Source of the DNA: Planotetraspora silvatica
Lineage (GTDB): Bacteria > Actinomycetota > Actinomycetes > Streptosporangiales > Streptosporangiaceae
Direction: 5' to 3'
Assembly: GCF_016863315.1 (NCBI RefSeq)
Contig: NZ_BOOQ01000021.1
Coordinates: 1 to 64,000, forward strand
DNA: 64,000 nt
Of this stretch, positions 48,468 to 63,399 are shown one piece after another (position 1 is the first letter of the stretch; each line of letters opens with the position of its first letter). Under the pieces are notes generated by a model. It had not been told where the DNA came from, did not search any database, and saw nothing but the letters and a program-made list of their open reading frames with translations. Both the position numbers and the translations under genes were made by a program.

Positions 48468-50093
48468 ATGTCCACCACCCCGCTCCGTGACCGCGCCTCC
48501 TGGAAGGCGCTCGAGCGGCATCACGCCGAGATCAGCGGTCGCCACCTGCGTGAGCTGTTCGCCGAGGACCCCGGGCGGGGCGAGCGCATGTCCGCGGAGG
48601 CGGCCGGGCTGTACCTCGACTACTCGAAGAACCGCGTCACCGACGAGACGATGGGCCTGCTGGCAGATCTCGCGCGGGAGTCGGAGCTGGAGCGGCGCAG
48701 GGACATGATGTTCCGCGGCGAGAAGATAAACACCTCCGAGGGAAGGTCGGTGCTCCACGTCGCGCTGCGAATGCCGAAGGGCGCCTCGCTCGTCGTCGAC
48801 GGCACCGACGTCGCCGCCGAGGTCCACGACGTCCTCGACCGGATGGCCGACTTCGCCCGCCACGTCCGGTCGGGCCAGTGGAAGGGCCACACGGGCAAGC
48901 CCATCAAGAACATCGTCAACATCGGCATCGGCGGCTCCGACCTCGGGCCCGTCATGGCCTACGAGGCTCTGCGCCACTACACCAAGCGCGACCTGACGTT
49001 CCGTTTCGTCTCCAACGTCGACTCGACCGACTTCGCCGAGGCGACCCACGACCTGTTCGCGGACGAGACGTTGTTCATCGTCTCGTCCAAGACGTTCGGC
49101 ACACTGGAGACGCTCACCAACGCCCACTCCGCGCGTGACTGGGTCGTCGGCCAGCTGGGCACCGACGAAGCGGTCGCGCGGCACTTCGTCGCGGTCTCCA
49201 CGAACGCCGAACGCGTCGCGGAGTTCGGCATCGACACCGCCAACATGTTCGGCTTCTGGGACTGGGTCGGCGGCCGGTACTCGATGGACTCGGCCATCGG
49301 CCTGTCGACGATGCTCGCCATCGGGCCCGAGCACTTCGCCGAGATGCTGGCGGGCTTCCACGAGATGGACGAGCACTTCCGCACGGCGCCGCTCGCGGAG
49401 AACCTGCCGGTGATCATGGGGTTGCTCTCCGTGTGGTACGTGAACTTCTTCGGCGTGCAGAGCATCGGCGTCATGCCGTACGAGCAGTATCTGAAGCGGT
49501 TCCCCGCCTACCTCCAGCAGCTCACCATGGAGTCGAACGGCAAGCACGTGACCCTGGACGGCCGGGCGGTCGACTACGACACCGGCCCCGTCTACTGGGG
49601 CGAGCCGGGCACGAACGGCCAGCACAGCTTCTACCAGCTCATCCACCAGGGCACACGGCTGATTCCCGTCGACCTGATCGGTTTCGGGAAGAGCCTCAAC
49701 CCGCTGCGCGACCACCACGACCTGCTGATGGCCAACGTCTTCGCGCAGGCGCAGGCCCTCGCCTTCGGCAAGACGGAGGAGGAGGTCAGGGCCGAGGGCA
49801 CCCCGGACCACGTCGTGCCGCACCGGGTCATGGAGGGCAACCGGCCGACCAACGTGCTGCTCGCCGAACGGCTCACCCCCCACCTGCTCGGGGCACTGGT
49901 GGCGCTCTACGAGCACATCGTCTTCGTCCAGGGGACGATCTGGAGCGTCGACTCCTTCGACCAGTGGGGTGTGGAGCTCGGCAAGGTGCTCGCCGGCCAG
50001 ATCGCCCCGGAACTGCTGAGCGACGAGGAGCCCGAACTCGCCCACGACTCGTCCACCAACACCCTCATCCGACGGTACCGGGGGCTCAAGTAG
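48468..50093 (+). CDS. pgi: Glucose-6-phosphate isomerase
   Basis: A 541-aa enzyme interconverting glucose 6-phosphate and fructose 6-phosphate. The PGI signatures are present ([18 protein letters not shown] near residue 146, [13 protein letters not shown] near 265, and the catalytic Lys region near the C-terminus). 99 nt after tkt with GGAGG upstream (48456-48460 region). Confidence 0.96.
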
Positions 50094-50118
50094 GCCCCAC
50101 CTGAGCCCGGCGAAGCAC

Positions 50119-50200
50119 GGGCGCGACGCTCGGACTTCCCCGGGCAGGACGCTCAGGCTTCGCCGAGCAGGAACGCCCGGGCTTCGCCTGGGCGGGACGG
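50119..50200 (+). repeat. 23-bp tandem repeat between pgi and gnd
   Basis: Units at 50119-50141, 50142-50164, 50165-50188 and a partial one at 50189-50200, each of the form GGGCAGGACGCTCGGGCTTC plus CCC/GCC. It fills almost the whole pgi-gnd gap just before the gnd ribosome site (GGGAGGAG). Confidence 0.75.
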
Positions 50201-50208
50201 GAGGAGCA

Positions 50209-51258
50209 ATGGCGACGGACAGGCCCATGCAGCTCGGCATGATCGGCCTCGGCCGGATGGGGGCCAACCTCGTCCGCCGGCTCATGCGGGACGGCCATCG
50301 CTGTGTCGTCTACGACGTCGACGAGAGCGCCGTGCGCGGACTCGAAGGCGAGGGCGCGACCGGCGCCACCTCCCTCCAGGACTTCGTGGCCAAGCTGGAC
50401 AGGCCGCGGGCGATCTGGCTCATGCTGCCCGCGGCCGTCGTGGAGCCGATGCTCGGCAAGCTCACCGATCTGCTCGACGAGGACGACGTCGTGATCGACG
50501 GCGGCAACTCCTACTACCGGGACGACATGACCCGGGCCAAACGGCTCGCCGCGAAGCGGATCCACTACGTCGACTGCGGCACGTCAGGCGGGGTCTGGGG
50601 CCTCGATCGCGGGTACTGCCTCATGATCGGCGGCCAGGCCGCGGCCGTCCAGCGGCTCGATCCGATCTTCCGTACGATCGCGCCCGGCGCCGGCGGCGTG
50701 GAACCCACGCCGAGCAGGGCCAAGGGGGACGGGACCGCCGCGGAGGGCTACCTCCACTGCGGCCCCAGCGGCGCGGGGCACTTCGTGAAGATGATCCACA
50801 ACGGCGTCGAGTACGGCATGATGGGCGCGATCGCCGAGGGCCTGTCCATCATCCGCCACGCCAACGTGGGCAAGGAGGGCCGCGAGATCGACGCCGAGAC
50901 GGCGCCGCTCCGCGACCCCGAGGCGTACCAGTACGACATCGACGTCGCCGAGGTCGCGGAGGTCTGGCGCCGCGGCTCCGTCGTCTCGTCGTGGCTCGTC
51001 GACCTGCTGGCGGACGCGCTCGCACGCTCGCCTCAACTCGACGGCTTCGAGGGGCGCGTCTCCGACTCCGGCGAGGGCCGCTGGACGGTGGACGCGGCGA
51101 TCGACGAGGGCGTCCCCGCCCCGGTCATCACGGCGGCCCTCATCGAGCGCTTCGAATCGCGCGGGCTCGGGCGGTTCACCGACGTGGCCCTGTCCGCGAT
51201 GCGCAGCGAGTTCGGCGGCCACGCCGAAAAACGCGCCCGCCCCACCCCTCCGGCGTGA
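50209..51258 (+). CDS. gnd: 6-phosphogluconate dehydrogenase, decarboxylating (short form)
   Basis: A 349-aa enzyme with Rossmann motif GLGRMGANLVRRLMRDG and substrate motifs CGTSGGVWGLDRGYC and KMIHNGVEYGMM. It converts 6-phosphogluconate to ribulose 5-phosphate. It is of the short (about 300-350 residue) class rather than the 470-residue class. The TGA stop (51256-51258) is contributed by the first unit of the 53-bp repeat array. Confidence 0.94.
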   Translation: MATDRPMQLGMIGLGRMGANLVRRLMRDGHRCVVYDVDESAVRGLEGEGATGATSLQDFVAKLDRPRAIWLMLPAAVVEPMLGKLTDLLDEDDVVIDGGNSYYRDDMTRAKRLAAKRIHYVDCGTSGGVWGLDRGYCLMIGGQAAAVQRLDPIFRTIAPGAGGVEPTPSRAKGDGTAAEGYLHCGPSGAGHFVKMIHNGVEYGMMGAIAEGLSIIRHANVGKEGREIDAETAPLRDPEAYQYDIDVAEVAEVWRRGSVVSSWLVDLLADALARSPQLDGFEGRVSDSGEGRWTVDAAIDEGVPAPVITAALIERFESRGLGRFTDVALSAMRSEFGGHAEKRARPTPPA

Positions 51259-51466
51259 TCATGCACACCTTCGGCCGCGGTATTCCTGACCTGCCGCTTT
51301 CATGTTCGTGATCATGCACACTTTCGGTTGCGTCGCCCTTGACCTGGCCAAACTCCATCCGTGATCATGCACACTTTCCGGAACGGCGTGGCCGACCTGC
51401 TCCAATAGCGCCCGTGATCATGCACTGGTCGCGGATGCGGTGTGGCAGGGGGATGAGATCCGGGCG
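51255..51466 (+). repeat. 53-bp repeat array A, left part, four forward units
   Basis: The core GTGATCATGCAC starts at 51255, 51308, 51361 and 51414, exactly 53 bp apart. Each complete unit continues with A-C-nn-TTCG-type sequence and has GACCTG at unit positions 34-39; the rest varies. The fourth unit decays after about 25 bp, before the YjbR-like gene. The gap from gnd to that gene contains nothing else. Confidence 0.95.
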
Positions 51467-51507
51467 ATCCCGGAGAAATGTCGGAGCACTCTGGTACATG
51501 TAAAGCC

Positions 51508-51852
51508 ATGGGTGTGACCGTCGACGAGTTCCTGAAGATGCTGGGCGATCTCCCTGAGGTCAAGCTGAGCGACAGCGACAGCTGGATCGCGCTGAAGGTG
51601 CGCGGCAAGGGCTTCGGCTACCTGTGGGAGCGGACCGAGACCGTGGGCCTCAAGGCGACGATCGAGGAGCAGATCGCGTTGGTGGCCGAGCGCCCCGACG
51701 TGTTCGAGGTCCAGTTCACCACGGGCAGGTTCGGCTGGGTCGTCGTGCATCTGGCGAAGATCGATCGGGAGGAGCTGTTCGAGCTCGTCACCGAGGCATG
51801 GTGCCTGACCGCCCCCAAGCAACTCGTCACCGCCCACGAGTCCCGCCACTGA
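51508..51852 (+). CDS. MmcQ/YjbR-family protein
   Basis: A 114-aa protein of the YjbR/MmcQ family (CyaY-like fold, sometimes annotated DNA-binding). It has the hallmark FLKMLGDLPEVKL, KVRGKGFGYL, ALVAERPDVF and TEAWCLTAPKQLV. An in-frame ATG at 51478 with GGAG only 2 nt upstream is an alternative start. It is enclosed on both sides by 53-bp repeats, the next unit starting 12 nt after its stop. Confidence 0.85.
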   Translation: MGVTVDEFLKMLGDLPEVKLSDSDSWIALKVRGKGFGYLWERTETVGLKATIEEQIALVAERPDVFEVQFTTGRFGWVVVHLAKIDREELFELVTEAWCLTAPKQLVTAHESRH

Positions 51853-51863
51853 CCCCCCCTGGC

Positions 51864-52075
51864 GTGATCATGCACAGATTCGGCAGAGGCACCCCTGGTC
51901 GGCCCCGACCTTGTTCGTGATCATGCACGCATTCGGGAAAACCACCCCTGACCAGCCCCGACATCGGGCGTGATCATGCACTGGTTCCGTTGCATTGCCT
52001 CCGACCAGCCACGACGCCAACCGTGATCATGCATGGATTCGTGACCGAGACGGCGAACTCCACGGTCGATGATCA
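51864..52075 (+). repeat. 53-bp repeat array A, middle part, four forward units
   Basis: Cores at 51864, 51917, 51970 and 52023 (the last reads GTGATCATGCAT), again exactly 53 bp apart. The last unit runs into the inverted units at the turning point around 52047-52075. Confidence 0.95.
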
Positions 52076-52205
52076 CATGACACGTACGTGCATGATCACC
52101 AAGCCATCCGGCCCAGGTCAGAGCCGCTTTCCTCGAATCTGTGCATGATCACGAACGACAAATCCCCAAATCAAGGTGGCTTGCATCGAAAGTGTGCATG
52201 ATCAC
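52047..52205 (-). repeat. 53-bp repeat array A, right part, three inverted units
   Basis: Inverted cores GTGCATGATCAC at 52088-52099, 52141-52152 and 52194-52205, exactly 53 bp apart. Read on the minus strand, the second unit also has GACCTG at positions 34-39. Together with the forward units they make a head-to-head array in the convergent gap between gnd/yjbR-like and the DeoR gene. Confidence 0.95.
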
Positions 52206-52229
52206 GGCCCAAGTTGGGGCTGGTCCGGC

Positions 52230-52352
52230 GTGCACGTCGTCACGAACGAGTCCTTCGCCGGCGCGCCCGTCGAGGCCGATCCGGACACGATGAGAGCGAT
52301 GCTCGACAGATCCCTGCAGGCGACCAGGTTCGAGATCGAGTTCGGCAGGTGA
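52230..52352 (+). pseudogene. Short open frame, possible 3' gene remnant
   Basis: A 40-codon frame (VHVVTNESFAGAPVEADPD, ending ATRFEIEFGR) with protein-like composition but no ribosome site. The frame stays open back into the last inverted repeat unit. It looks like the tail of a lost gene; I cannot name the family. Confidence 0.3.
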
Positions 52353-52369
52353 CGCCTCCCGGCTCTGCG

Positions 52370-53140
52370 TCACACCCTGGTCACGGTCACGCCGGCCTCG
52401 GTGAGACGAGCCGCCGCGTCATCGGACAGTCCGTCATCGGTGATCAAGCTGTCGATCGCGTCGATCGCGCAGATCCGCGCGAACGCCCGGCGGCCGACCT
52501 TGGACGCGTCGGCGACGACCACGACGCGGCCGGCCCGCTCGATGAGCTGGCTGTTGACGCTCGCCTCCCCCTCGTGATGCGCGGTCGCCCCCGCGTCGAC
52601 GTCGATCGCGTCGACCCCGAGGAAGGCGATGTCGATCGCCACCTGTTCCAGCACTCCCGACGCCAGCGGGCCGATCAGCTCGTATGACTGCGGCCGGGCC
52701 ACCCCGCCGGTGACCACGATCTTCACGTGCTGGCGGACGGTCAGCTCCGCCGCGATGTTCAGCGCGTTGGTGACGATCGTGAAGCCGACCTCCGGATCCG
52801 CCACCGTGGCCAGTGCCCGCGCCACCTCTGACGTGGTCGTGCCACCGTTCATCCCGACCACGGCGCCCGGTTCCACCAGGGCCGCGGCCGCCTTGGCGAT
52901 GCGCTGCTTCTCCCCCGCGTGCCTGGCCGTCTTGTACCGCAGGGGGAGGTCGTAGCTCACGCTCTGGGTGACCGCGCCGCCCCGCGTCCGCATCAGCAGC
53001 TGCTGGCCCGCCAGTTCGTCGAAATCACGCCGGATCGTCGCGGTGGAGACCTCCAGCGACTGCGCGGCCTGTTCGACCGACAACCGGCCCTCCTCCGCGA
53101 GGAGTTCGAGGATGGCGTTCCACCGCTCGTACCTGCTCAC
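52370..53140 (-). CDS. DeoR-family sugar regulator (AgaR/GatR-like)
   Basis: A 256-aa repressor with N-terminal helix-turn-helix (LSVEQAAQSLEVSTATIRRDFDEL, about residues 19-42) and the DeoR sugar-phosphate-binding domain (VGMNGGTTTSEVARAL, FLGVDAIDVDAGATAHHEGEA). It is divergent from the AgaS-like gene. A 47-bp box in front of agaS recurs before the PfkB gene, so the regulon probably covers agaS, pfkB and the aldolase, with a sugar phosphate as inducer. Confidence 0.93.
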   Translation of the reverse strand: MSRYERWNAILELLAEEGRLSVEQAAQSLEVSTATIRRDFDELAGQQLLMRTRGGAVTQSVSYDLPLRYKTARHAGEKQRIAKAAAALVEPGAVVGMNGGTTTSEVARALATVADPEVGFTIVTNALNIAAELTVRQHVKIVVTGGVARPQSYELIGPLASGVLEQVAIDIAFLGVDAIDVDAGATAHHEGEASVNSQLIERAGRVVVVADASKVGRRAFARICAIDAIDSLITDDGLSDDAAARLTEAGVTVTRV

Positions 53141-53231
53141 CGTGCCTCACCCTGCCTACTCACGCTGCCCCGCCTCCTGGCGCACTCGCCGCGCACCAGC
53201 CTGGCACACACACCGGATGCCACCCCCAGCT

Positions 53232-53278
53232 CTGCACAAAGCTGTTCAATAATGCTATGAAATATGCAGAAACGAACC
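53232..53278 (+). promoter_or_regulatory. 47-bp promoter/operator box, copy 1 (before agaS-like gene)
   Basis: A conserved block starting CTGCACAAA and ending AAACGAACC with TAATGCTATGAAA in the middle. It matches the block at 58786-58832 at 41 of 47 positions. A+T-rich, directly upstream of the SIS gene and between it and the DeoR gene. Its AAACGAAC element resembles DeoR/AgaR half-sites. Confidence 0.8.
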
Positions 53279-53293
53279 CTATCTGGAGGCGGC

Positions 53294-54178
53294 ATGACCA
53301 CCCACACCGAGGCCGAGATCGCCTCACAACCGGACTGCTGGCGCGAGGTGGCCGCCATTCCGGCCCAGGCCCTGCCCGCCCCCGGTGAACGCGTCGCCGT
53401 CGTCGGCTGCGGCACCTCCTGGTTCATCGCCCAGAGCTACGCGGCCCTCCGCGAGCGCGCGGGACACGGCGAGACCGACGCGTTCCCCGCTTCGGAGACC
53501 CCTCTCCGGCGTCCTTACGACCGCATCGTCGCCCTCACCCGGTCGGGGACCACCACCGAGGTCCTCGATCTCCTTCGCCGCGTGAAGGAGTCCGGCTCCT
53601 CCACCAGGACGACCGCCATCACCGCGGACGCGGACACGCCGGTGACCGGTCTGGCGGACGAGACGATCGTCCTCGGCTTCGCCGACGAGCGGTCCGTGGT
53701 GCAGACCCGCTTCGCCACGACCCAGCTCGCCCTCCTCCGCACGCACCTCGGCGAGGACCTCACCTCCGCCATCGCGGACGCAGAGCACGCGCTCGCCGAG
53801 CCGCTCCCGGAGTCGCTGATCGCCGCCGAGCAGTTCTCCTTCCTCGGCACCGGCTGGACGTACGGCATCGCCCAGGAGGCGGCGCTGAAAATGCGGGAGG
53901 CGTGCCGGGCCTGGACCGAGGCCCACCTCGCCATGGAGTACCGCCACGGCCCCATCGCCATCGCGGGACCGGGACGGATCACCTGGACGCTGGGCACGGC
54001 CCCCAGCGGGATGCGCGACCAGGTCGAGGCCACCGGCGGCACGCTCCTGGAGACGACCCTCGACCCGATGGCCGAACTCATCCGCGTCCAGCGGGTGGCC
54101 GTCGCCCGCGCCCACGCCGCCGGCCTGGACCCCGACCGGCCGCTGCACCTCACCCGGTCGGTCATCCTCCCCGCCTGA
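53294..54178 (+). CDS. SIS-domain sugar-phosphate isomerase/deaminase (AgaS-like)
   Basis: A 294-aa protein with two SIS domains (VAVVGCGTSWFIAQSYAALRE; ALTRSGTTTEVLDLLRRVKESG). AgaS/GlmS-like SIS proteins deaminate or isomerise amino-sugar phosphates such as galactosamine 6-phosphate. ATG at 53294 is chosen for the GGAGG at 53285-53289; an earlier ATG lies inside the operator block. Controlled by the divergent DeoR protein. Confidence 0.86.
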   Translation: MTTHTEAEIASQPDCWREVAAIPAQALPAPGERVAVVGCGTSWFIAQSYAALRERAGHGETDAFPASETPLRRPYDRIVALTRSGTTTEVLDLLRRVKESGSSTRTTAITADADTPVTGLADETIVLGFADERSVVQTRFATTQLALLRTHLGEDLTSAIADAEHALAEPLPESLIAAEQFSFLGTGWTYGIAQEAALKMREACRAWTEAHLAMEYRHGPIAIAGPGRITWTLGTAPSGMRDQVEATGGTLLETTLDPMAELIRVQRVAVARAHAAGLDPDRPLHLTRSVILPA

Positions 54179-54366
54179 CGGCACGACTCCGTAACCGAAG
54201 AGGTTGAGCGCCCGGCCGTCGTCCCGCTTCCGTACGGCGGGGCGGCGGCCGGCGCCTCGCCGTCCACGGGCCCGATCGGCGGGCCGGACCCGAAACCGAG
54301 CAGCACCATCGGCACGACGATCGAGGCGAGCGAGGTACGCCGCAATCCATACCTGGACGGGCCGGA

Positions 54367-54942
54367 TCAGGCCTCGTGAAGCCCGCGGGCGATCAGCCGC
54401 CGTACGGCGTCGACGACGGTGCGCCTACGGCGGTCGCGGTCGGCCGGAGCGTTCGTGCCCAACTCGGGGGTGACCGACGCCCACGCCCCCGCCACCGAGA
54501 TGACGAGCGTGAGGAGCTCGACCGGCGTGTAGTGATCCGACAGGACGCCCTCTCGCTGCGCCCGCGCCACCTTCTCGAGCTTCCCGACGTTGGAGGTCAC
54601 GATGGCCTGCAGCGGAGCCCCCTGCGGCCGCTCCAGCCGGTACCAGGTGGCCAGGCGAACGGTCGCGGGATCGTCCTCGTAACGGTCGAACAACCGCCCG
54701 GCGTACCCCGGAAGGTCGGCGGCGTCGAACGGCACGTGCTCGATGGTCGCGGCGACCAGAGCGGTGAAGACCGCGTCGAACAACTGGTCCTTGTTGCCGA
54801 AGTACGCGTAGATCATCGCCTTGTTGCATCCGGCGGCTTCGGCGATGCGGTCGACCCGGGCCCCCGCGATGCCGAGCGCGGCGAACTCGACGGCCGCCGC
54901 CTCCAGAAGCCGCTTCTTCGTCCGATCCGCGTCCCGCACCAT
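54367..54942 (-). CDS. TetR-family regulator
   Basis: A 191-aa regulator with helix-turn-helix RVDRIAEAAGCNKAMIYAYFGNKDQLFDAV and a C-terminal domain of the TetR_C_33-like type. The frame extends to 55023, across an operator-like palindrome, so ATG 54942 is the likely start. Divergent from a short-chain dehydrogenase gene, which it probably represses. Confidence 0.9.
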   Translation of the reverse strand: MVRDADRTKKRLLEAAAVEFAALGIAGARVDRIAEAAGCNKAMIYAYFGNKDQLFDAVFTALVAATIEHVPFDAADLPGYAGRLFDRYEDDPATVRLATWYRLERPQGAPLQAIVTSNVGKLEKVARAQREGVLSDHYTPVELLTLVISVAGAWASVTPELGTNAPADRDRRRRTVVDAVRRLIARGLHEA

Positions 54943-54965
54943 GCCCGTGACCCTACCACTCGGTC

Positions 54966-55033
54966 CAACCAACCGGTTAGTTGACACAACTCGCCCGGCG
55001 GGTGTTTCCTGACTCGTATCCAACTGGTCAGTT
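54966..55033. promoter_or_regulatory. TetR operators in the TetR/SDR divergent promoter
   Basis: An 18-bp near-palindrome CAACCAACCGGTTAGTTG (54966-54983, central AACCGGTT perfect) overlaps a TTGACA hexamer (54981-54986). A second palindrome AACTG-GT-CAGTT lies at 55022-55033, just before the SDR ribosome site. Both are typical TetR-type sites. Confidence 0.72.
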
Positions 55034-55053
55034 AGTTAGTGAAGGAACCCCTC

Positions 55054-55896
55054 ATGTCCAAGACCTGGCTCATCACCGGCAGCTCCCGGGGCTTCGGCCG
55101 GGAGCTCGCCAAGGCGGCGCTCGACAACGGCGACCGGGTCGTCGCGACCGCGCGGCGCCCGGAGCAGCTCGACGATCTCGTGAAGGAGTACGGCGACGCC
55201 GTACGGGCGATCGGGCTCGACGTCACCGACGCGGCGGCCGCCCGCGCCGCCGTACAGACCGCGGTCGACGAGTTCGGGACGCTCGACGTCGTGGTGAACA
55301 ACGCCGGCTACGCCAACAGCGCCTCCATCGAGGACACCCCCGACGACGATTTCCGCGCCCAGATCGAGACGAACCTGTTCGGCGTCGTCAACGTCACCAA
55401 GGCCGCCCTGCCCGTACTGCACCGGCAGCGGTCGGGGCACTTCATCCAGTTCTCCTCCATCGGCGGACGCGTCGGCGGCACTCCGGGGATGGGCGCGTAC
55501 CAGACCGCCAAGTGGGCCGTCGAAGGCTTCTCCGAGGTTCTCAGCAACGAGGTGAAGCCCTTCGGCGTGAAGGTCACCATCATCGAGCCCGGCGGCTTCC
55601 GCACCGATTGGGGCGGCTCCTCGATGCGCACCCCACCGGTGAGCCAGGACTACGACGAGACGGTCGGCGCGATGAACCGCTACCGGGAGTCCACCGTGCA
55701 CCAGTGGGCGGGCGACCCGGTCCGCGCCGCCAGGATCATCACCGACATCGTGGGCCTCGACGAGCCGCCGCTGCGCCTTCTGCTCGGTGCGGGCGCGGTC
55801 GACCTGGCGGAGCAGGCCTCCAGGGTGCGCGCCGCGGAAGCCGAGAAGTGGGCCGACGTCAGCAGGTCCGCCGACTTCCCCGCCGACGAGTCCTGA
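55054..55896 (+). CDS. Short-chain dehydrogenase/reductase
   Basis: A 280-aa classical SDR: cofactor motif TGSSRGFG (residues 9-16), NNAG, catalytic Ser (SSIGG) and YQTAK (Tyr/Lys). ATG 55054 is used with AAGGA at proper spacing. Regulated by the divergent TetR protein; substrate unknown. Confidence 0.93.
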   Translation: MSKTWLITGSSRGFGRELAKAALDNGDRVVATARRPEQLDDLVKEYGDAVRAIGLDVTDAAAARAAVQTAVDEFGTLDVVVNNAGYANSASIEDTPDDDFRAQIETNLFGVVNVTKAALPVLHRQRSGHFIQFSSIGGRVGGTPGMGAYQTAKWAVEGFSEVLSNEVKPFGVKVTIIEPGGFRTDWGGSSMRTPPVSQDYDETVGAMNRYRESTVHQWAGDPVRAARIITDIVGLDEPPLRLLLGAGAVDLAEQASRVRAAEAEKWADVSRSADFPADES

Positions 55897-55980
55897 CAGG
55901 GACGACCTTGACCGCCCGGCGTCCATCCGGTGCCGGCGGATCCGCTGCCTGCTCGCCGGGCAGGACCCGGAGTTCGCGGG

Positions 55981-57114
55981 TCACCGGTAGACGCTGGCGA
56001 TCGCACGCAGGTCGGGATGCGTCTCCGAGGCCGGGCGCAGGCGCGGCGCGAGGGAACGCTTCAGCTTCCGGGGCACGCCCGGTCCCAGCCCCACATATTC
56101 CAGGCGGGTACCGGCGGGGACACCTCCCAGAAGGGTCGTGGCCCCCCGCCCGGTCACCCCGGTGTGGCGAAGCTCGAGCCGACGGAGCGGGCTGCCCATG
56201 AGCGCTCCGGTGAGCGCCTCCACGCCGAGGTCCCCGGTGACGTTGGCGGGTGCGCCGAGGGCGCGCTCCGACGGCGGCCGGCCGAGGTCCAGCACCTCGA
56301 TCCCGTCGAGAGCCGCGGCCAGCGCACGGGCGCCGGCGGGTCCGATCCCGTTGCCGCCGAGGCCGAGGCCTACCGGCCGGGCGGGATCGGCCGCCGCCGC
56401 GAGCGCGGCGGCACCTTTGTCGCCCAGATGATTGGCCGCCAGGTAGAGCTCGCGGACACCCGCGTCGCGGATCAGCGCCGCCAGCAAAGGTGCGGCGTCG
56501 GGACCGAGGCCGTTGCCGCCGAGGAAGAGCCGCTCGATCGGCCGGGACCTGTCCGTGAGTGCGGCGAGAAGGGCGCCCAGCCCGTCCACGGTGAGCCCGG
56601 TGTTCACCAGGTCGAGCGTGCGGAGCGTGGTGTTGCGGCGCACCATCGTGGCGAGCGCCCGGACTCCCGCGTCGCCGATCGGATTGCGCTTGAGCCAGAG
56701 GCCGTGGACGGTGTCGTCACCGGCCAGCCGGTCGGCCAACGCGGCGGCTCCACCCGGGTCGATGCGGTTGCAGCCGAGATACAACGTCCGCAGCGGGTGG
56801 CCCGGCTGCAACGCCCCGGCGATCGCCCGGGCTCCCTCGGAGCCGATGGCGTTCGTGCCGAGCAGCAGATGGGCGACATGGGGCGAGGCGGTCACCACGG
56901 GCAGCAGCCGGATGACGCCCACCGGGCCGAGTCCCTGCTTGCAGAGGTCGATCCGCCCGTCCGGCCGTACGGTCCCCACCGGGAACGTCTCGTCGGCGCT
57001 GACCGGGTCCGAAGTGGCCAGCCTGGCGAGGAGCGGTCGGAGCGCCGCGGGGTCGGCGAGCGGCACATCGGGATGCTCGATCGCGGGGCAGCGCACGGGC
57101 GTCGGCTGCGTCAT
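55981..57114 (-). CDS. Leucine-rich-repeat protein (ribonuclease-inhibitor type)
   Basis: A 377-aa cytoplasmic protein made of about nine RI-type LRRs between residues 75 and 330 (LRTLYLGCNRIDPGGAAALADRL, IERLFLGGNGLGPDAAPLLAAL and similar, 27-29 residues each). No signal peptide. Its ATG overlaps the stop of the SDR gene (TGATG), so the two proteins are co-translated and likely interact. Eukaryote-like LRRs of this type mediate protein binding. Confidence 0.85.
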   Translation of the reverse strand: MTQPTPVRCPAIEHPDVPLADPAALRPLLARLATSDPVSADETFPVGTVRPDGRIDLCKQGLGPVGVIRLLPVVTASPHVAHLLLGTNAIGSEGARAIAGALQPGHPLRTLYLGCNRIDPGGAAALADRLAGDDTVHGLWLKRNPIGDAGVRALATMVRRNTTLRTLDLVNTGLTVDGLGALLAALTDRSRPIERLFLGGNGLGPDAAPLLAALIRDAGVRELYLAANHLGDKGAAALAAAADPARPVGLGLGGNGIGPAGARALAAALDGIEVLDLGRPPSERALGAPANVTGDLGVEALTGALMGSPLRRLELRHTGVTGRGATTLLGGVPAGTRLEYVGLGPGVPRKLKRSLAPRLRPASETHPDLRAIASVYR

Positions 57115-58574
57115 CACCACTCCACCGGTTGGAAGTCCTTCAGGAACAGGCCGGACATCCGCTGCCCGCCGACGCCTCGTACGACGGGGTCGTAGACGCG
57201 CGCGGCGCCGTCGATGACGTCCAGCGGCGGCCGGAAACCGGACTCCCGCTGGGCCGTCTTCGCAGGATGAGGACGTTCGTCGGTCACCCAGCCCGTGTCC
57301 ACGCTGTTCATGTGAATCCCCGAGGCCGCATAGTCGGCGGCCGCCGTACGGGTCAGCATGTTCAGCGAAGCCTTCGCCATGTTCGTGTGCGGGTGCCGGA
57401 CGGTCTTGTTCACGCGCGAGAAGCTCCCCTCCATGGCCGAGACCTGCACCACGTAGCGATCGGGGAACGGCGACGCCTCCATGAGCCCGCGCAGCCGGGA
57501 GGTGAGGAGGAAGGGCCCGAAGGCGTTCACCGTCTGCACCTCCAGCCACTCCACGGGATCGACCTCGTGCAGGCGCAGATTCCAGCTGTTGCGCGCGCGC
57601 AGGTCCAGCGGCTGGCCCGTCTCGTCCGTACGGCCGGCCGGGAAGAGCGACTCCATCCCGTCCTCCCCCGCCGCGAGCGTACGGCCGGCGGAGCCGAGGG
57701 CGGCGACCTCCACCGCCTCGCGGAAGGCGACCGCGGCCGGCCTCGCCGGAGTCGTGATCCGGACCCGTGCCGCCGTCCCTGTCAGAGGCTCGTTCTCCGC
57801 CGAGCGCACCTGATGGTGATACGCCTGGGGCCGTCTGATCGTCTGTGCCGCGTTGTTGACCAGGATGTCGAGGTGCTCGAAACGGTCGTGCACGGATTCG
57901 AGCAGCCCGGCCAAGCCCGCGAAGTCGAGCAGGTCGACGCCGTGAACATGTAAGCGGTCCAGCCACTCCGCGGAGTCGGGCACCGCCGCGAAACGACGGG
58001 CGGCGTCGCGGGGGAAGCGAGAGGTGACCAGGACCTCGGCGCCGTCACGCAACATCTTCAGCACCAGATGGAAGCCGATCTTGATGCGGCCGCCGGTGAC
58101 GAGCGCCCGCCGCCCGTGCAGATCGCATCGCGCGTGACGGCGGCTCAGGCTCTCGGCCGCACAGTCCGGGCACATGAGGTGGTAGACGGGATGCACGTGG
58201 CCGTACATCGTCTTGCACACGTAGCACCGGTGGGCGCCGACCAGCGGCCGCAGGACCGTCGGCACCGGGCCGGCGGTCCCGGCGCCGGCCAGGTGTCCTG
58301 CGGCCGGCCGCGTCGGCTCGGGACCGGGGTCCTGCTCCTGGTAACGCTCCGAGGCCGCCATGGCCTCACGGTCGCGGCGCCTGCGGTCCGCGCGTCTGGC
58401 CGCCTTCCGCGCCTTCCTGCCCGCCCGGTAGACCTGCGCCACGGCCTCGTGCACGGCCGCCCACCGCGGGTCCGCGGGGTCCGTCGCGCGCGCCCGGTCG
58501 AGCACCCGCAGGCAGGTCTCGATGTCCGGCTGGGCGAGGGCGTCCGCGACCACGTCCGGGGGGTTCGACGCCAT
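57114..58574 (-). CDS. Atypical SDR with N-terminal zinc-ribbon module
   Basis: A 486-aa protein. Residues 1-100 are helical and basic. Next comes CYVCKTMYGHVHPVYHLMCPDC (about 116-137), a CxxC...CxxC zinc ribbon, then a Rossmann SDR domain (ALVTGGRIKIGFHLVLKMLRDGAEVLVTSR, ILVNNAAQTIRRP). At the catalytic position the Tyr of YxxxK is replaced: the sequence reads HTNMAKASLNM, with Lys but no Tyr. It may therefore be non-catalytic or use another residue. GAGGAGA precedes the start. A tRNA-like gene ends 22 nt upstream on the same strand and the LRR gene is coupled downstream. Confidence 0.82.
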   Translation of the reverse strand: MASNPPDVVADALAQPDIETCLRVLDRARATDPADPRWAAVHEAVAQVYRAGRKARKAARRADRRRRDREAMAASERYQEQDPGPEPTRPAAGHLAGAGTAGPVPTVLRPLVGAHRCYVCKTMYGHVHPVYHLMCPDCAAESLSRRHARCDLHGRRALVTGGRIKIGFHLVLKMLRDGAEVLVTSRFPRDAARRFAAVPDSAEWLDRLHVHGVDLLDFAGLAGLLESVHDRFEHLDILVNNAAQTIRRPQAYHHQVRSAENEPLTGTAARVRITTPARPAAVAFREAVEVAALGSAGRTLAAGEDGMESLFPAGRTDETGQPLDLRARNSWNLRLHEVDPVEWLEVQTVNAFGPFLLTSRLRGLMEASPFPDRYVVQVSAMEGSFSRVNKTVRHPHTNMAKASLNMLTRTAAADYAASGIHMNSVDTGWVTDERPHPAKTAQRESGFRPPLDVIDGAARVYDPVVRGVGGQRMSGLFLKDFQPVEW

Positions 58575-58595
58575 CGGCTCTCCTCACGAATGAGC

Positions 58596-58671
58596 GGCAA
58601 GGCCGGCCGGATTCGAACCGGCGTCCTCCCTTGAGCAAAGGGCACGACGACCTCTGCGCTACAGCCTTGCC
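58596..58671 (-). tRNA. tRNA-like gene with non-canonical anticodon arm
   Basis: A 76-nt minus-strand element with pairing ends GGCAAGG/CCTTGCC, a perfect T-arm (GCCGG TTCGAAT CCGGC) and D-arm-like GCGC..AGAGG..GTGC. The helix next to the T-arm can extend to 10 bp (GGCAAGGCTG with CGGCCTTGCC). The anticodon arm folds either as CCCTT/AAGGG with a 5-nt loop or as 4 bp plus a 7-nt loop that would read GCT, yet with C at position 37 and a short variable loop unlike tRNA-Ser. CCA is not encoded. It is directly upstream of the zinc-ribbon SDR gene. A real but unusual tRNA, or a tRNA-derived RNA. Confidence 0.6.
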
Positions 58672-58785
58672 TTCGGTCACCTTAGCGATATTTCCGACAC
58701 TTGATCACGGGCCCGCACGGAGCGGCCGGCACGAAACGATCACCGAAGGGGCGGCGCTGTGACGCACATCACGCACGGCTCCTCA

Positions 58786-58832
58786 CTGCACAAATATGCT
58801 CATTAATGCTATGAAAGATGCATAAACGAACC
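58786..58832 (+). promoter_or_regulatory. 47-bp promoter/operator box, copy 2 (before pfkB-like gene)
   Basis: Second copy of the block at 53232-53278 (41 of 47 identical; starts CTGCACAAA, contains TAATGCTATGAAA, ends AAACGAACC). It lies 66 nt before the sugar-phosphate kinase start and just before the leader frame. Expected DeoR-controlled promoter of the kinase/aldolase operon. Confidence 0.8.
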
Positions 58833-58853
58833 ATCCTCCGTCGGGAGGCCGCA

Positions 58854-58901
58854 GTGATCTCCCCCACTGGCGCCTGCGACCAGGCAGAACTCGCGGCATG
58901 A
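58854..58901 (+). CDS. 15-codon leader frame overlapping the kinase gene
   Basis: GTG at 58854 with GGGAGG just upstream begins a 15-aa frame (reads ISPTGACDQAELAA after the start) whose TGA overlaps the kinase ATG as ATGA. The kinase lacks its own ribosome site, so it is likely translated by coupling. The frame stands at the same place relative to the 47-bp box as the agaS start codon in copy 1, and its residues resemble an AgaS N-terminus, so it may be a remnant of one. Confidence 0.5.
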   Translation: MISPTGACDQAELAA

Positions 58902-59857
58902 TCCTCACCGTCACGCTCAACCTGGCTCTCGACGTGACCTACGCGGTCGGCGATGTCGACTGGAACGGCATGAACCGCGTCAGCGCGGTCCATCGCCGCG
59001 CGGGCGGCAAGGGCGTGAACGTCGCCCGCGTGCTCACTTCTCTCGGCCACGAGGTCCTCGCCACGGGCCTCGCCGGAGGCCGTACCGGCGACGCCGTCCT
59101 GGCCGACCTCACCCTCGCGGGCGTCGCCGCGGACTTCACCCCCATCGCCGCCGAGTCACGGACCACCCTCGTGGTCTCCGACCCCGGCGCGTCCGCGTCC
59201 GGTACGGCCACAGCCCCCCGGAACGCGCTGTTCAACGAGCCGGGCCCGGTGGTGACCGACGAGGACCTCGCCCGTTTCACCCGCCACTTCGCCGGCCTCG
59301 TCGGCCGGGCGGACGCCGTCGTGATCTCCGGGAGCCTGCCTCCCGGCGTTCCCGCGGACTTCTACGCCGGACTCGCGGCGATGGCCGCGGAGCGAGGCGT
59401 GCCCGCGATCGTGGACGCCGACGGCGCTCCTCTCCGTCACGCCCTGCGCGGCCGTCCCTCGATCGTCAAACCCAACGCGGAGGAACTCGCGCGGGCCATG
59501 CCCCGCGGGGGGGCATCGCACCCGTCTCCCGACACGGCCCGGGCGGAAACGTTGCGGAGAGCGGGAGCGGAGTCCGTGGTGGTCTCGCTCGGAGCAGGCG
59601 GGGCGCTCGCGGTGACGCCCGGCGGGTCCTGGCGGGCCCACATGCCGCGCGAGATCTCCGGAAACCCGACCGGCGCGGGAGACGCCCTGGTGGCGGGGCT
59701 CGCCCTCGGCCTCGTGGAAGCCACCCCATGGCCGGACCGGCTGCGCCGCGCCACCGCGCTGGGGGCCGCCGCCGTCGCCGCTCCCCTCGCCGGCGACTTC
59801 GACCCCGGGGTCTACCGGACCCTCCACCCCGCGATCAGCATCGAGCCCGTCGCCTGA
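58898..59857 (+). CDS. PfkB-family sugar-phosphate kinase (1-phosphofructokinase/tagatose-6-phosphate kinase)
   Basis: A 319-aa kinase. The opening MILTVTLNLALDVTY, the RRAGGKGVNVARVL motif and the C-terminal GNPTGAGDALVAG (catalytic Asp) define the LacC/FruK class. It phosphorylates fructose 1-phosphate or tagatose 6-phosphate to the bisphosphate cleaved by the next gene. With AgaS and the aldolase it suggests galactosamine/tagatose-type catabolism. Confidence 0.9.
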   Translation: MILTVTLNLALDVTYAVGDVDWNGMNRVSAVHRRAGGKGVNVARVLTSLGHEVLATGLAGGRTGDAVLADLTLAGVAADFTPIAAESRTTLVVSDPGASASGTATAPRNALFNEPGPVVTDEDLARFTRHFAGLVGRADAVVISGSLPPGVPADFYAGLAAMAAERGVPAIVDADGAPLRHALRGRPSIVKPNAEELARAMPRGGASHPSPDTARAETLRRAGAESVVVSLGAGGALAVTPGGSWRAHMPREISGNPTGAGDALVAGLALGLVEATPWPDRLRRATALGAAAVAAPLAGDFDPGVYRTLHPAISIEPVA

Positions 59858-59894
59858 CCCCCCACCCGAAGAACCACAGAAACGGAGGCCGTCC

Positions 59895-60716
59895 ATGCCC
59901 CTCGTCGGCATCGGCGACATCACCCGTAACGCTCCGGCGGGCGTCGGCGCCTTCAACGTCATCCTGCTGGAGCACGCCGAGGCGATCGTCGCGGGAGCGG
60001 AGGCCGCGGACACCCCCGTGGTCCTGCAGATCAGCGAGAACGCGGTCCGCTATCACGGGGCGCTGGCCCCGATCGCGGTGGCCTCGCTGGCCGTCGCCGG
60101 CGCCGCGGCCGTGCCCGTCGCCGTGCATCTCGACCACGCCACCGACCGCGCCCTGGTCGAGGAGGCCGTCACGCTCGGGCTCGGCTCGGTCATGTTCGAC
60201 GCCTCCGCACTCGACGACGAAGCCAACGTGGCGGCCACCGCGGACGTCGTCGCCTGGTGCCACGAGCGCGGCGTGTGGGTGGAGGCCGAGCTCGGCGAGG
60301 TCGGCGGGAAGGACGGTGTGCACGCGCCGGGCGCCCGCACCAAACCACACGAGGCCGCCGACTACGTGGCGCGTACGGGTGTCGACGCCCTGGCGGTGGC
60401 CGTCGGCAGCTCCCACGCGATGACCACCAAGGACGCCGTGCTCGACCTCGACCTCATCGCGGAGCTCCACGCCGCGGTGCCGGTCCCTCTCGTGCTGCAC
60501 GGCTCCTCCGGGGTGCCCGACGACACCCTCCGCGCTGCCGTACGGCACGGCATGAAGAAGATCAACATCGCCACGCATCTCAACAAGGCCTTCACCGAGG
60601 CCGTCCGCGGCCACCTCGACCTACACCCGTCGGCGGTCGACTCCCGGGCGTACGTCAAGGTCGGCCGCGACGCCGTCGCCCGCGAGGTGGCCCATCTCCT
60701 CAACGTCCTGTCATGA
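59895..60716 (+). CDS. Class II ketose-bisphosphate aldolase (GatY/KbaY-like)
   Basis: A 273-aa zinc aldolase. Motifs: GAFNVILLEHAEAIV, HLDHATD (zinc His), EAELGEVGGKDG, and LHGSSGVPDDTLR (zinc His), with KINIATHLNKAF near the C-terminus. It splits tagatose or fructose 1,6-bisphosphate into triose phosphates. 37 nt after the kinase gene, same operon. The second repeat array starts 20 nt after its stop. Confidence 0.92.
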   Translation: MPLVGIGDITRNAPAGVGAFNVILLEHAEAIVAGAEAADTPVVLQISENAVRYHGALAPIAVASLAVAGAAAVPVAVHLDHATDRALVEEAVTLGLGSVMFDASALDDEANVAATADVVAWCHERGVWVEAELGEVGGKDGVHAPGARTKPHEAADYVARTGVDALAVAVGSSHAMTTKDAVLDLDLIAELHAAVPVPLVLHGSSGVPDDTLRAAVRHGMKKINIATHLNKAFTEAVRGHLDLHPSAVDSRAYVKVGRDAVAREVAHLLNVLS

Positions 60717-60735
60717 CCCCCCACAGAACCCCGCC

Positions 60736-60947
60736 GTGATCATGCACCGATTCGTACGCGGCCACGCCGACCTGCGCGAACCTCCGCCGTGATCATGCAT
60801 GGATTCGTGCGCGGCCACGGTGACCTGCGCATACGGTCCGCGTGATCATGCGCAGATTCGTTGACGGGCGCTCTGACCTGCGCAAATCTCTGGCGTGATC
60901 ATGCGCAAGATGCGGGCCCAATTGACTTGTGCGCAACGTGCGCAAGA
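60736..60947 (+). repeat. 53-bp repeat array B, left part, four forward units
   Basis: Cores at 60736, 60789, 60842 and 60895 (GTGATCATGCAC/T, then GTGATCATGCGC twice), exactly 53 bp apart. Units continue with ATTCGT-GCGCGGCCAC-type sequence and GACCTG at positions 34-39, followed by GCG. The fourth unit is degenerate. 60948-61055, between the two halves, holds no gene and no clear unit. Confidence 0.95.
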
Positions 60948-61055
60948 GCGCTGCGGCCATGGCCACAGCGACCGCGGGCAGCCTTCTGCGGGCAGGTTAC
61001 TTCGGGTTCTCTGTTCGATGGGCGATGCGTCCGCGAAAACTATTCGGGCGATGTA

Positions 61056-61320
61056 TCGAGCAAGGGCCGGGTCCGCGCACGGCCGTACACGAATGTGTGC
61101 ATGATCACACGGACCGTATGCGCAGGCCAACACGGCCGCGCACGAACCCGTGCATGATCACGACAAAGGTTCGCGCAGGCCAGCACAGCCGTACACGAAC
61201 CCGTGCATGATCACGCGGACCGTATGCGCAGGCCAGCATGGCCGCGCACGAACCTGTGCATGATCACGACAAAGGTTCGCGCAGGTCGGCATGGCCGCGC
61301 ACGAACCCGTGCATGATCAC
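61056..61320 (-). repeat. 53-bp repeat array B, right part, five inverted units
   Basis: Inverted cores GTGCATGATCAC end at 61108, 61161, 61214, 61267 and 61320, exactly 53 bp apart. On the minus strand the unit tails alternate between GCGAACCTTTGTC (units ending 61320 and 61214) and GCATACGGTCCG (units ending 61267 and 61161), so a 106-bp dimer has been duplicated. The outermost unit contains the stop codon of the Gfo/Idh gene. Confidence 0.96.
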
Positions 61321-62567
61321 GGCGGGGGTAGGGGGACGACGGTGGCGGTTCGGCGGGCTTGTTCTGCGGCCCATACGACGCGGTGGGAGGCGAGGCTCGT
61401 GGCGGCGTCCGTCCAGACCAGCGAGGCGTCGCCCACGGCCACCGCCCGGAGGAAGGCGTCCACGAGGGCTCCGTCTCCCCCACCATGGCCGTCCGCGGTC
61501 GAGGCTCCGCTCTCCGCGCTGGTGTCGACGACCTCCTCCCGGCCTGTACGGAAGTCAATGACCTTCAGCAGGGTCCCGTCGCCCTCCAGGTAGCCGTGTG
61601 TGCCGAAGATCCTGGTCCTGCGCTGCTCCTGCGGTGTGAACGCCGTCATGGTGAAGGAGACGGTGCCGCCCCCGGCGAACTCCCAGGAGACCACCTGATG
61701 GTCGACGGCGGAGTTGTCGCAGGCGTAGACGCACCGGCCGTAGGGTCCCTCGCGCAGGGCCTGCCGTACGCCCTCCTCGGTGTGGTCGGAGGTGACCACG
61801 CTCAACGGCCAGAACGTGCGGTCCGGATCCTTCAGGCAGTCGAGGTAGAGCCGGGGCGCCGAGTAGGGGCAGGTGGCCTCGACCGCGCAGTCGAGACACC
61901 GGTCCGCCGCGCCCTCCGGCCGGTTGGCCGCGGTGAAGTGTTTCAGCGACCCGAACGACGAGACGCGTTCGACCGGCCGGCCGGTGATGTGGAGCAGCCA
62001 GTCGATGTCGTGGCACGACTTCGCGAGCAACATGGGCGCGTCCTGCTCACGCCGCCAGTTGCCGCGCACGAACGAGTGGGCCTGGTGCCACCAGCCGACC
62101 GGCTCGAGGTGCTGCACGCTCACGATCTCGCCGATCCGCCCGGACGCGAGAAGCGAGGTGAGCACGCGGGTGTAGACGGTGTAGCGGAGCACATGGCAGA
62201 CCGTGAGGATCACTCCGGCCGCCTCCACCGCGTCCACGATGCGCCGTGCGTCGGCCTCCGAGGTGGCCATCGGCTTCTCCAGCAGCAGGTGGTGTCCCGT
62301 GCGGGCGAACGCCACGGCCTGGTCGGCGTGCTGCCCGTCCGGGCTGGCGATGACGGCGGCGTCCGCCGACCGCTGGGCGGCCAGGGCCGTCCAGTCCGCG
62401 TGGACGTGTTCCGGCGCCAGCCCGTGCTCGGCGGCGAAGGCCGCCCGGCGCTTCGGATCGGGATCGGCGACGGCGACCACGCGGGCGCCCGCGGCCGCCG
62501 CGTGGCGGGCGTAGACCGTGCCCCGCATGCCCGCTCCGACGACGACCAGTGTGACCGGCCGGCTCAT
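61317..62567 (-). CDS. Gfo/Idh/MocA-family NAD(P)-dependent oxidoreductase
   Basis: A 416-aa sugar or inositol-type dehydrogenase: Rossmann start VVVGAGMRGTVYARHA, LLEKPMATSEADARRI with the conserved EKP, and a C-terminal alpha/beta domain containing a Cys-rich stretch CLDCAVEATCPYSAP (four Cys, unusual but seen in a subfamily). Downstream of two ABC sugar permease genes, it probably oxidises the imported sugar. Its TGA (61319-61317) lies inside a 53-bp repeat unit. Confidence 0.92.
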   Translation of the reverse strand: MSRPVTLVVVGAGMRGTVYARHAAAAGARVVAVADPDPKRRAAFAAEHGLAPEHVHADWTALAAQRSADAAVIASPDGQHADQAVAFARTGHHLLLEKPMATSEADARRIVDAVEAAGVILTVCHVLRYTVYTRVLTSLLASGRIGEIVSVQHLEPVGWWHQAHSFVRGNWRREQDAPMLLAKSCHDIDWLLHITGRPVERVSSFGSLKHFTAANRPEGAADRCLDCAVEATCPYSAPRLYLDCLKDPDRTFWPLSVVTSDHTEEGVRQALREGPYGRCVYACDNSAVDHQVVSWEFAGGGTVSFTMTAFTPQEQRRTRIFGTHGYLEGDGTLLKVIDFRTGREEVVDTSAESGASTADGHGGGDGALVDAFLRAVAVGDASLVWTDAATSLASHRVVWAAEQARRTATVVPLPPP

Positions 62568-62586
62568 GTTCGATCCTCTCCGCGGG

Positions 62587-63399
62587 TCATCCCTTGAGCC
62601 CGCTGAACGACATGGTCGCGATGAAGTGCCGCTGGGCCACGAGGAACGCCGCGATCAGCGGGAAGGTCGCCAGCACGTTGCCGGCCATCAGCGCCGACCA
62701 CTGGGTGTGCCGGGCTCCCGCGAACGTCGTGAGACCCACCTGCAGGGTGTAGGTCTCCTCGGAGTTGATGGCGATCAGCGGCCAGATCAGGTCGTTCCAC
62801 GCGCCGAGGAACGTGAAGACGGCCAGGGTCGCGAGCGCGGGACGGGCGAGCGGCAACACCACGCGGAAGAACACGCCGAGGCGGTTGCAGCCGTCGATCC
62901 GGGCGGCCTCCTCCAGTTCGCGCGGCAGGCTGAGGAAGAACTGCCTCATCAGGAAGACCCCGAAGGCCGTCGCCAGCCAGGGCAGGAACGCCGCGGCCAG
63001 CGTGTCGATCAGGCCGAGGCTCTTGAAGACGAGGAACGTCGGGATCATCAGCACCTGGGTCGGCACCATGACGGTCGCCATGATGGCCACGAAGGCGACG
63101 CCCCTGCCGCGGAAGCGCAGCCGGGCGAAGCCGTACCCGGCGAGGGAGCACAACACCAGGTGGGCGACGACGGCGACGGCGGTGACGAGCAGCGTGTTGC
63201 CGAACCACCGCGGGTAGCTGTCCTCGGTGAGGACCTTGAGGTACCCGCCGAAGTCGATGTGGCTGGGCCACAGGTGCGGCGGGAACGCGTTGATCTCGGC
63301 GTCGGGCATGAACGACGTGATGAGCATCCACACCAGCGGCGCCGCGAACAACAACGACAGCGGCATGAGGACCAGGTGGTAGGGCCACTGACGCTTCAT
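62587..63399 (-). CDS. ABC sugar transporter permease (MalG type)
   Basis: A 270-aa permease with six transmembrane segments and EAA loop [14 protein letters not shown]. The ATG overlaps the MalF-type stop (ATGA). 19 nt upstream of the Gfo/Idh gene in the same operon, which continues beyond the window edge. Confidence 0.94.

Follow-up and report, generated by a model that had tools for sequence, protein, structure and literature searches.

What purpose could be served by a short word repeated at exact 53-bp steps at the ends of bacterial genes? The question is raised by a stretch of 64,000 nucleotides from Planotetraspora silvatica (the window; contig NZ_BOOQ01000021.1, positions 1 to 64,000), in which an array of units built on a 12-base core occupies 51255-52205. 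A sequence-only reading had described eleven such units and had taken them for a protein-binding array with all cores on one side of the DNA. The arrays recur throughout the host genome, and we suggest, at close to even confidence, that they are a genome-wide operator system that marks gene ends and is read by a DNA-binding protein.

All eleven coordinates of the earlier description proved exact; ten of the cores are perfect and the one at 52023 carries a single mismatch (GTGATCATGCAT). Four forward cores (51255, 51308, 51361 and 51414) make up a one-way row at 51255-51425. A two-way array follows, with a forward half at 51864-52034 (cores at 51864, 51917, 51970 and 52023) and an inverted half on the minus strand at 52088-52205 (cores at 52088, 52141 and 52194); a degenerate minus-strand core with two mismatches at 52065-52076 is a possible innermost copy. 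The steps are exactly 53 bp inside every run, and the second anchor that had been noted is found as GACCTG or GACCAG at unit positions 34-39 in most units. Allowing up to three mismatches, the window holds 103 core matches, whereas 100 shuffles average 46.6 and none exceeds 64.

The host genome (G000; 8.66 Mb in 117 contigs) has 698 exact copies of the 12-base core, 360 on one strand and 338 on the other, a density of about 81 per Mb; the reversed pattern has no copies there. Contig C2 carries 90 exact cores in 20 sites, and from this average of 4.5 per site we estimate that the whole genome may hold about 155 sites. Seventy exact cores from the first 400 kb of C2 and the window give the unit consensus C-GTGATCATGCAC-RGGTTCGG-N12-YGACCWGC-...-AAC, in which box A (GTGATCATGCA(C)..TTCG) and box B (YGACCWGC) are separated by some two and a half helical turns. 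Outside these boxes the unit is variable, and several runs terminate in a bare core. In 752 kb of G000, 82 of the 95 same-strand exact 11-mer neighbours lying within 200 bp are exactly 53 bp apart, the remaining steps being 106 (seven), 52 (three), 105 (two) and 21 (one). On 120 kb of G059, a genome of another genus, a step of 52 between repeated 10-mers is commoner than 53 (68 versus 36). Because five turns at 10.5 bp amount to 52.5 bp, which the two common spacings straddle, both steps keep one face of the DNA, as had been claimed for the cores. Neither the array nor its phasing is peculiar to this genome: the core is present in all five genomes of the genus that were compared, including G000, and phased pairs occur in six of 150 genomes of the family, namely these five and G059.

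Comparison with P. mira (G104) indicates that boxes and spacing are apparently under selection, kept in place while the spacers drift. Of the 20 sites on C2, 11 could be traced into G104, and all 11 are kept with the number of cores the same or changed by one; the remaining nine lack synteny in the G104 stretch compared. Identity between the two genomes is 95-100% at core positions 1-10 and 12 (72% at position 11), 95-98% at positions 17-19, 88-97% in box B (positions 33-40) and 76-93% at the other unit positions; outside the units, in mostly coding sequence, it is 91%. Per base, the units carry 0.110 substitutions, the centres 0.139, the flanking non-coding DNA 0.193 and called coding sequence 0.054. 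The units accumulated 282 substitutions and four indels, versus 145 and 14 in the non-coding flanks and centres (Fisher p = 0.00026), and 44 of 49 units have a spacing of 53 in both genomes. Alignments of three loci (from three, five and five genomes) show persisting cores and diverging spacers. At one orthologous first unit, compared by eye, P. thailandica (G022) has a different box A extension next to a recognisable spacer. The orthologous copies look selected in place because their boxes and spacing are conserved and their spacers drift.

The placement of the arrays follows a simple grammar. Counting as a site any group of at least two cores, we found 96 over all the stretches read. Both orientations occur in 46 of them, and forward cores come first in 44; the exceptions are C2 346754, where an overlapping degenerate copy is involved, and G059_058 1772, which looks real. 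The other 50 are one-way (27 inverted, 23 forward). The innermost facing cores, counted on 11-mers, are 23-25 bp apart in 17 of the 46 two-way sites, and in 10 of them the distance is 40-41 bp. At several sites a single gene is flanked, and in G077 outward-facing single cores surround one gene (L217). In 1.13 Mb of G000 and G104, of which 20 kb was picked for holding arrays, convergent gaps are occupied in 16 of 162 cases, codirectional ones in 19 of 654 and divergent ones in 1 of 163 (convergent versus divergent, Fisher p = 0.0001). Among 87 array edges, a count that takes in only edges with a same-sense gene end nearby, 20 supply the stop through the TGA of the core, four coincide with a gene end at the TGA of box B, and 46 begin 6-29 nt past the stop. 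Cores hardly enter the genes, two of the 135 exact 11-mers on 752 kb lying within called genes, near the edge, and none deeper than 40 nt. At one codirectional site the array stops just short of a conserved TTGACA promoter-like stretch. A gene for a peptidase M20 stands between facing halves in G125 and G077 (L241-L243) and is missing from G000, G104 and G022 (L215, L239, L245), where the two halves lie next to each other. This gene had pointed to cassette capture at the array centre, a reading that we do not claim, since its junctions lack clean edges and a further two in-array genes are found at their loci in all five genomes.

We suggest that each 53-bp unit is a composite binding site, made of box A (GTGATCATGCA with a lineage extension, which here ends in TTCG) and box B, and that two to five units set five helical turns apart would present equal boxes on one side of the DNA, with two rows often facing each other. 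A sequence-specific protein would bind the rows, most likely cooperatively and aligned along one face, reading box A in its lineage dialect and, in Planotetraspora, box B as well. Its most likely job would be to mark where transcription units end, or to seal them there; sealing could mean blocking read-through or antisense transcription, or holding supercoils. We infer a boundary role because the arrays follow stop codons, favour convergent gaps and are rare in the divergent gaps that hold promoters. The proposal of the sequence-only reading that the array binds protein is supported at the level of sequence by the scarcity of indels in units, by spacings of 53 and 52 around 52.5 bp and by boxes conserved amid drifting spacers; the lack of clear covariation, the weak folding of one-way rows and the likeness to ARG boxes, all taken up below, add to it. 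It had also known of no described element of this form, and we found no description of this repeat in the literature searched, which excludes most subscription papers.

The ends of bacterial genes are usually ascribed to hairpins or Rho, and boundary elements akin to eukaryotic insulators are hardly known in bacteria. Hundreds of cores kept in helical register at gene ends offer a handle on a possible boundary made by protein. The ARG-box likeness provides a simple first test, and the dialects are a natural experiment for finding the reader. The family also suggests that selection can hold a 3'-end repeat family without the RAYT transposase that explains REPINs (inverted pairs of repetitive extragenic palindromes, REPs).

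Several points weigh against a boundary system under selection. Because the cores were picked in G000, core identity is inflated, a bias that box B escapes, and picking the units there by near-53 spacing lowers their indel count. The called coding flanks, which were kept out of the indel test because gene ends there are uncertain, hold 80 substitutions and 13 indels. As for the gap preference, G000 and G104 share sites by descent, the gap classes rest on a simple home-made gene caller, and the difference between codirectional and divergent gaps is not significant over all gaps (p = 0.15), reaching p = 0.0016 for gaps of at least 100 bp; over all stretches, divergent gaps hold five of the 93 sites with both neighbours called. 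Of the one-way rows in codirectional gaps, 18 run along with transcription and 15 oppose it, which makes a strictly directional stop a poor fit. Some arrays also lie within apparent operons, which weighs against a strong terminator; the genes concerned, named by eye, are ribH and a PH-domain gene, an oxidoreductase subunit and a deaminase, and an ABC ATPase and its permease.

A lead to the reader protein comes from the arginine repressor. Table 1 of a study of ArgR in Streptomyces coelicolor assigns the box CTCTCCGTGATCATGCACCC, which holds the exact core, to a fragment shifted by ArgR (PMC5839063); the fragment is that of SCO5864, with a score of 11.8 bits and no observed change in transcription (PMC5839063). 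We built an ARG-box matrix from the other 36 model boxes given there (PMC5839063). Scored with it against all 20-mers on the 752 kb of G000, the 135 exact cores reach the 99.95th percentile at the median. Among the best 20, 50 and 100 ARG-like words, array cores account for 16, 25 and 39, respectively. The dialect of G022 (..ATGCAGAA) and most other dialects tried also score highly. ArgR would explain how one word recurs in unrelated lineages, and the hexameric ArgR is our first candidate for the reader within the operator reading, a tentative choice that we hold less likely to be right than wrong.

Other points speak against ArgR. Box A fits well to only one half of the ARG palindrome, the left half being poor, and the match emerged from a search with the core string over millions of papers, so that chance must be allowed for. 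The best box of the argR region is without the core in G000, G104, G125 and G077 (TGCATGACTATGCG-like) and in G022 (similar). All 26 genomes tested, 16 of them carriers and 10 not, have one ArgR copy each, which disposes of a carrier-specific paralogue as the reader, and the DNA-binding part of ArgR, compared by eye, looks alike in carriers and non-carriers of the family; the patchy distribution is therefore not explained by ArgR, and neither are box B and the 53-bp step. Counted in favour of the ARG-box likeness, the best ARG-like word in the argR region of the array-less G097 and G119 is TGCATGATCATGCA (L312, L315), which holds TGATCATGCA, a stretch missing from the corresponding box of the five Planotetraspora carriers (L296-L300); it is as if the carriers' own argR operator had moved away from the array word. 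We think it possible, though on balance doubtful, that the full picture is a patchily inherited actinomycete boundary system whose invariant 11-base GTGATCATGCA at gene ends is derived from the ARG box or read beside it, with the lineage dialects being read either by an ArgR turned to a new use or by an undescribed protein of its own, and which in Planotetraspora forms well over a hundred five-turn, mostly inward rows that separate transcription units.

Should the arrays act as RNA rather than DNA, they would be bidirectional terminators in which inward cores pair as a 3'-end hairpin. The eleven two-way arrays of G000 that were examined (sites longer than 520 bp excluded) fold far better than shuffles, with a mean z of -11.9 that stems from the facing cores; in other lineages the element is a simple palindrome close to the ends of genes, several inner stems of RYN_229 differing yet remaining complementary. 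However, 50 of the 96 sites are one-way, and the ten of these folded in G000 are weak (mean z -1.8, range -0.3 to -3.2). Within the unit, a hairpin that seemed to be offered by the apparent complementarity of AGGTTCGG with CCGACCT was rejected, as 198 units gave no clear sign of pair covariation where that stem would lie; most of the linked positions adjoin one another, and a few distant pairs show weaker linkage. Kineococcus often has its innermost pair disrupted, a T-tract terminator was absent at the second site of the window (60736-61320) and matched once, at chance level, at the first, and a hairpin requires neither an invariant 11-mer nor exact spacing. Rfam gave no family over arrays or hairpins (window 50000-62600, and seven loci with hairpins). 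On this evidence we consider terminators unlikely. The weak folding of one-way rows, the lack of clear covariation and the 18 to 15 orientation lead us to favour double-stranded DNA bound by protein, with a hairpin role possible at the two-way arrays.

The arrays might instead be repeats like REPs and REPINs, spread in trans by a transposase, with the inward pair as the mobile unit and any host role secondary. Their gap preference is that described for REPs (PMC3733652), very similar dispersed palindromes exist elsewhere (at least 61 in a metagenome-assembled genome (MAG) of the Kineosporiaceae and 25 in Kineococcus rubinsiae), and the distribution is patchy even inside one genus. Yet the RAYT family Y1_Tnp (PF01797), searched in draft genomes at E <= 0.001, was absent from 12 of 14 high-copy carriers, including G000, and present in G022 and G512, and we rejected RAYT as the driver; moreover, orthologues inherited by descent keep boxes and spacing while their spacers drift, and the unit shows no hairpin covariation. 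Such an origin seems rather unlikely. It is improbable that the arrays are a mere sink or switch for ArgR, where ARG-like sites titrate or position the protein without a boundary role. The ARG-box likeness, the ArgR-shifted fragment that holds the exact core (PMC5839063) and the presence of ArgR in all 26 genomes, by which the same word could arise in unrelated lineages, would suit it, but the ARG boxes set out in that study are mostly near start codons and are single or contiguous 20-bp boxes (PMC5839063), and a sink needs neither exact spacing nor box B. We regard as highly improbable that gyrase or a nucleoid protein uses the arrays as catch sites to absorb positive supercoils between convergent genes. 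Convergent gaps are indeed the most often occupied, and three-unit rows (about 160 bp) would suit wrapping, but a general topoisomerase has no need for an invariant 11-mer and box B, and most relatives, which must also have gyrase, are without rows. Least credible, and extremely improbable, are uptake signals in the manner of the Neisseria and Haemophilus DNA uptake sequences and uptake signal sequences (DUS and USS), with one dialect per lineage: the copies are clustered in rows, and DUS density is far above that of the array cores (about 81 per Mb). A short core, lineage dialects and inverted gene-end pairs are found in DUS as well, but intragenic DUS are common (PMC3630211) and none of the 135 cores lies deep inside a gene.

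The operator reading must also accommodate the distribution of the word among actinomycetes. At least one 12-mer occurs in 171 of 394 genomes of the class and at least 20 in four (G000, G237, G296 and G386); G237 has 206 cores and G193, of the same genus, has none. Among the matches listed, facing 11-mers are carried by Planotetraspora, Kineococcus rubinsiae, Kineosporia mesophila, the Kineosporiaceae MAG, Bailinhaonella thermotolerans, several Actinomadura and Microbispora bryophytorum, and with lineage-specific extensions the same 11-mer forms 3'-end palindromes in scattered actinomycetes. The distance between the arms is fixed or nearly so in Kineococcus, the Kineosporiaceae MAG, Kineosporia, Bailinhaonella and RYN_229 and variable in G237, G178 and Actinomadura. 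Outside Planotetraspora, 17 elements are convergent, 22 codirectional and two divergent, in a count that covers 80 of 105 loci and requires both neighbours to be called. A facing pair occurs in two of 396 genomes of the phylum, both within the class, and in none of 358 genomes of other classes, by a scan that would miss one-way rows. Viral contigs yielded no facing or phased pairs, and plasmids and phages no match to window 51850-52230. A search for sites shared by G059 and G000 gave four orthologues in the compared stretches, all without arrays. In 200 kb each of the array-less relatives G097 and G058 no family built on another core had comparable strength, the best alternative word being CCGTACGGCC in G058 (13 copies, 0.6 expected). 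Genes next to elements in low-copy genomes, and those beside divergent sites, were inspected by eye as a source of the binding protein and look ordinary.

Some further repeats and hosts came to light in these genomes. In G178 (L069), a 3.1-Mb genome in a single contig, six facing pairs of a 22-bp dialect arm were found, which makes it a small host well suited to a search for the reader protein. In three Actinomadura genomes (L132, L153, L107) a single palindrome adjoins the same small gene by a sugar-type ABC transporter (by eye); single elements may also be retained by descent. G176 (L070 9714-9840), of another family, has six copies of the word, four of them exact, at exact 22-bp steps with a near-identical spacer, and this looks like an ordinary tandem repeat. 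On C1 of G058 (L260-L269) 10-mers unrelated to the core repeat at 36-bp steps (49 pairs), perhaps as a local tandem array.

The window itself holds a second array, at 60736-61320, that the first description overlooked. Its forward half (60736-60906; cores at 60736, 60789, 60842 and 60895, the last three with one mismatch each) begins 19 bp past the stop of an aldolase gene. The inverted half, on the minus strand at 61097-61320, has five exact cores, the outermost of which contains the stop (61317-61319) of a minus-strand oxidoreductase gene at 61317-62567. Its five units form a 106-bp higher-order repeat (61077-61321, 89% match), a sign of a recent duplication of a two-unit block. Duplication thus contributes to array growth, and the earlier proposal that the array is not random slippage is supported by the spacing and indel evidence, with this qualification. 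Short tandem copies of the array edge, about 17-20 bp long, were also seen at the left edges of arrays (for example L235 2250-2300, L243 920-980, L236 near 2240-2320), each composed of a C-rich stretch and GCGTGATC and stacked from the stop codon to the first full core.

Genes around the arrays were called with the same simple caller, and Pfam was run on eight window and in-array genes. The first core of the one-way row contains the TGA stop (51256-51258) of a forward-strand gene resembling 6-phosphogluconate dehydrogenase (50209-51258; gene call and Pfam). A YjbR-family gene on the same strand (51508-51852) is flanked on both sides by forward rows, in the same order in G077 (L218), where both rows and the intervening gene are kept and the inverted row is absent. 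Rows are present at this locus also in P. kaengkrachanensis (L091). On the side of the inverted half the convergent neighbour is a DeoR-type gene at 52370-53140. The Rfam scan placed a tRNA gene on the minus strand at 58598-58668.

How do the arrays compare with known systems? With the ARG box they have in common TGATCATGCA, which box A shares with the S. coelicolor consensus computed here from published boxes (GTCTGCATGATCATGCAGAC), and the exact core inside one box of an ArgR-shifted fragment (PMC5839063). They are unlike it in that they are not single or contiguous 20-bp boxes near promoters and stand at 53-bp steps with edges mostly after stops; box B, the step, the inward rows and the position behind stops belong to the arrays. 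REPs, bacterial interspersed mosaic elements (BIMEs) and REPINs are likewise extragenic, present in hundreds of copies and found mostly in convergent and codirectional gaps (PMC3733652), and they too come as inverted pairs and in versions with a conserved head (PMC3733652, PMC3116915), the inverted pair and the link to RAYT being documented for REPINs (PMC3116915). The array unit, in contrast, is non-palindromic and forms tandem rows of fixed five-turn step, its spacing is apparently selected, and 12 of the 14 carriers are without RAYT. With DUS and USS the arrays share a short invariant core, dialects and inverted gene-end pairs (PMC3630211), but their cores are not deep in genes, form phased rows and have a low density. 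Clustered regularly interspaced short palindromic repeats (CRISPR) differ in that the repeat here is 12 bp and box B recurs in the spacers, always at set positions (no search for cas genes was made). Mycobacterial interspersed repetitive units (MIRUs) are actinobacterial intergenic tandem repeats of about 53 bp that overlap stop codons; the arrays conserve boxes only, with differing spacers, are set apart from MIRUs by this description, and probably match them in length by coincidence. The stable GC hairpin with T-tract of an intrinsic terminator was not found at the sites in the window, although two-way rows do fold. What we do find, within the biases from choosing cores and units in G000, is the combination of conserved boxes and selected helical spacing that characterises a phased operator array. 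Helically phased operator rows, such as replication iterons and the sites at transposon ends, are repeated protein sites on one face of the DNA; those rows occur at one or a few loci, whereas the arrays bring about 700 cores to gene ends throughout the genome.

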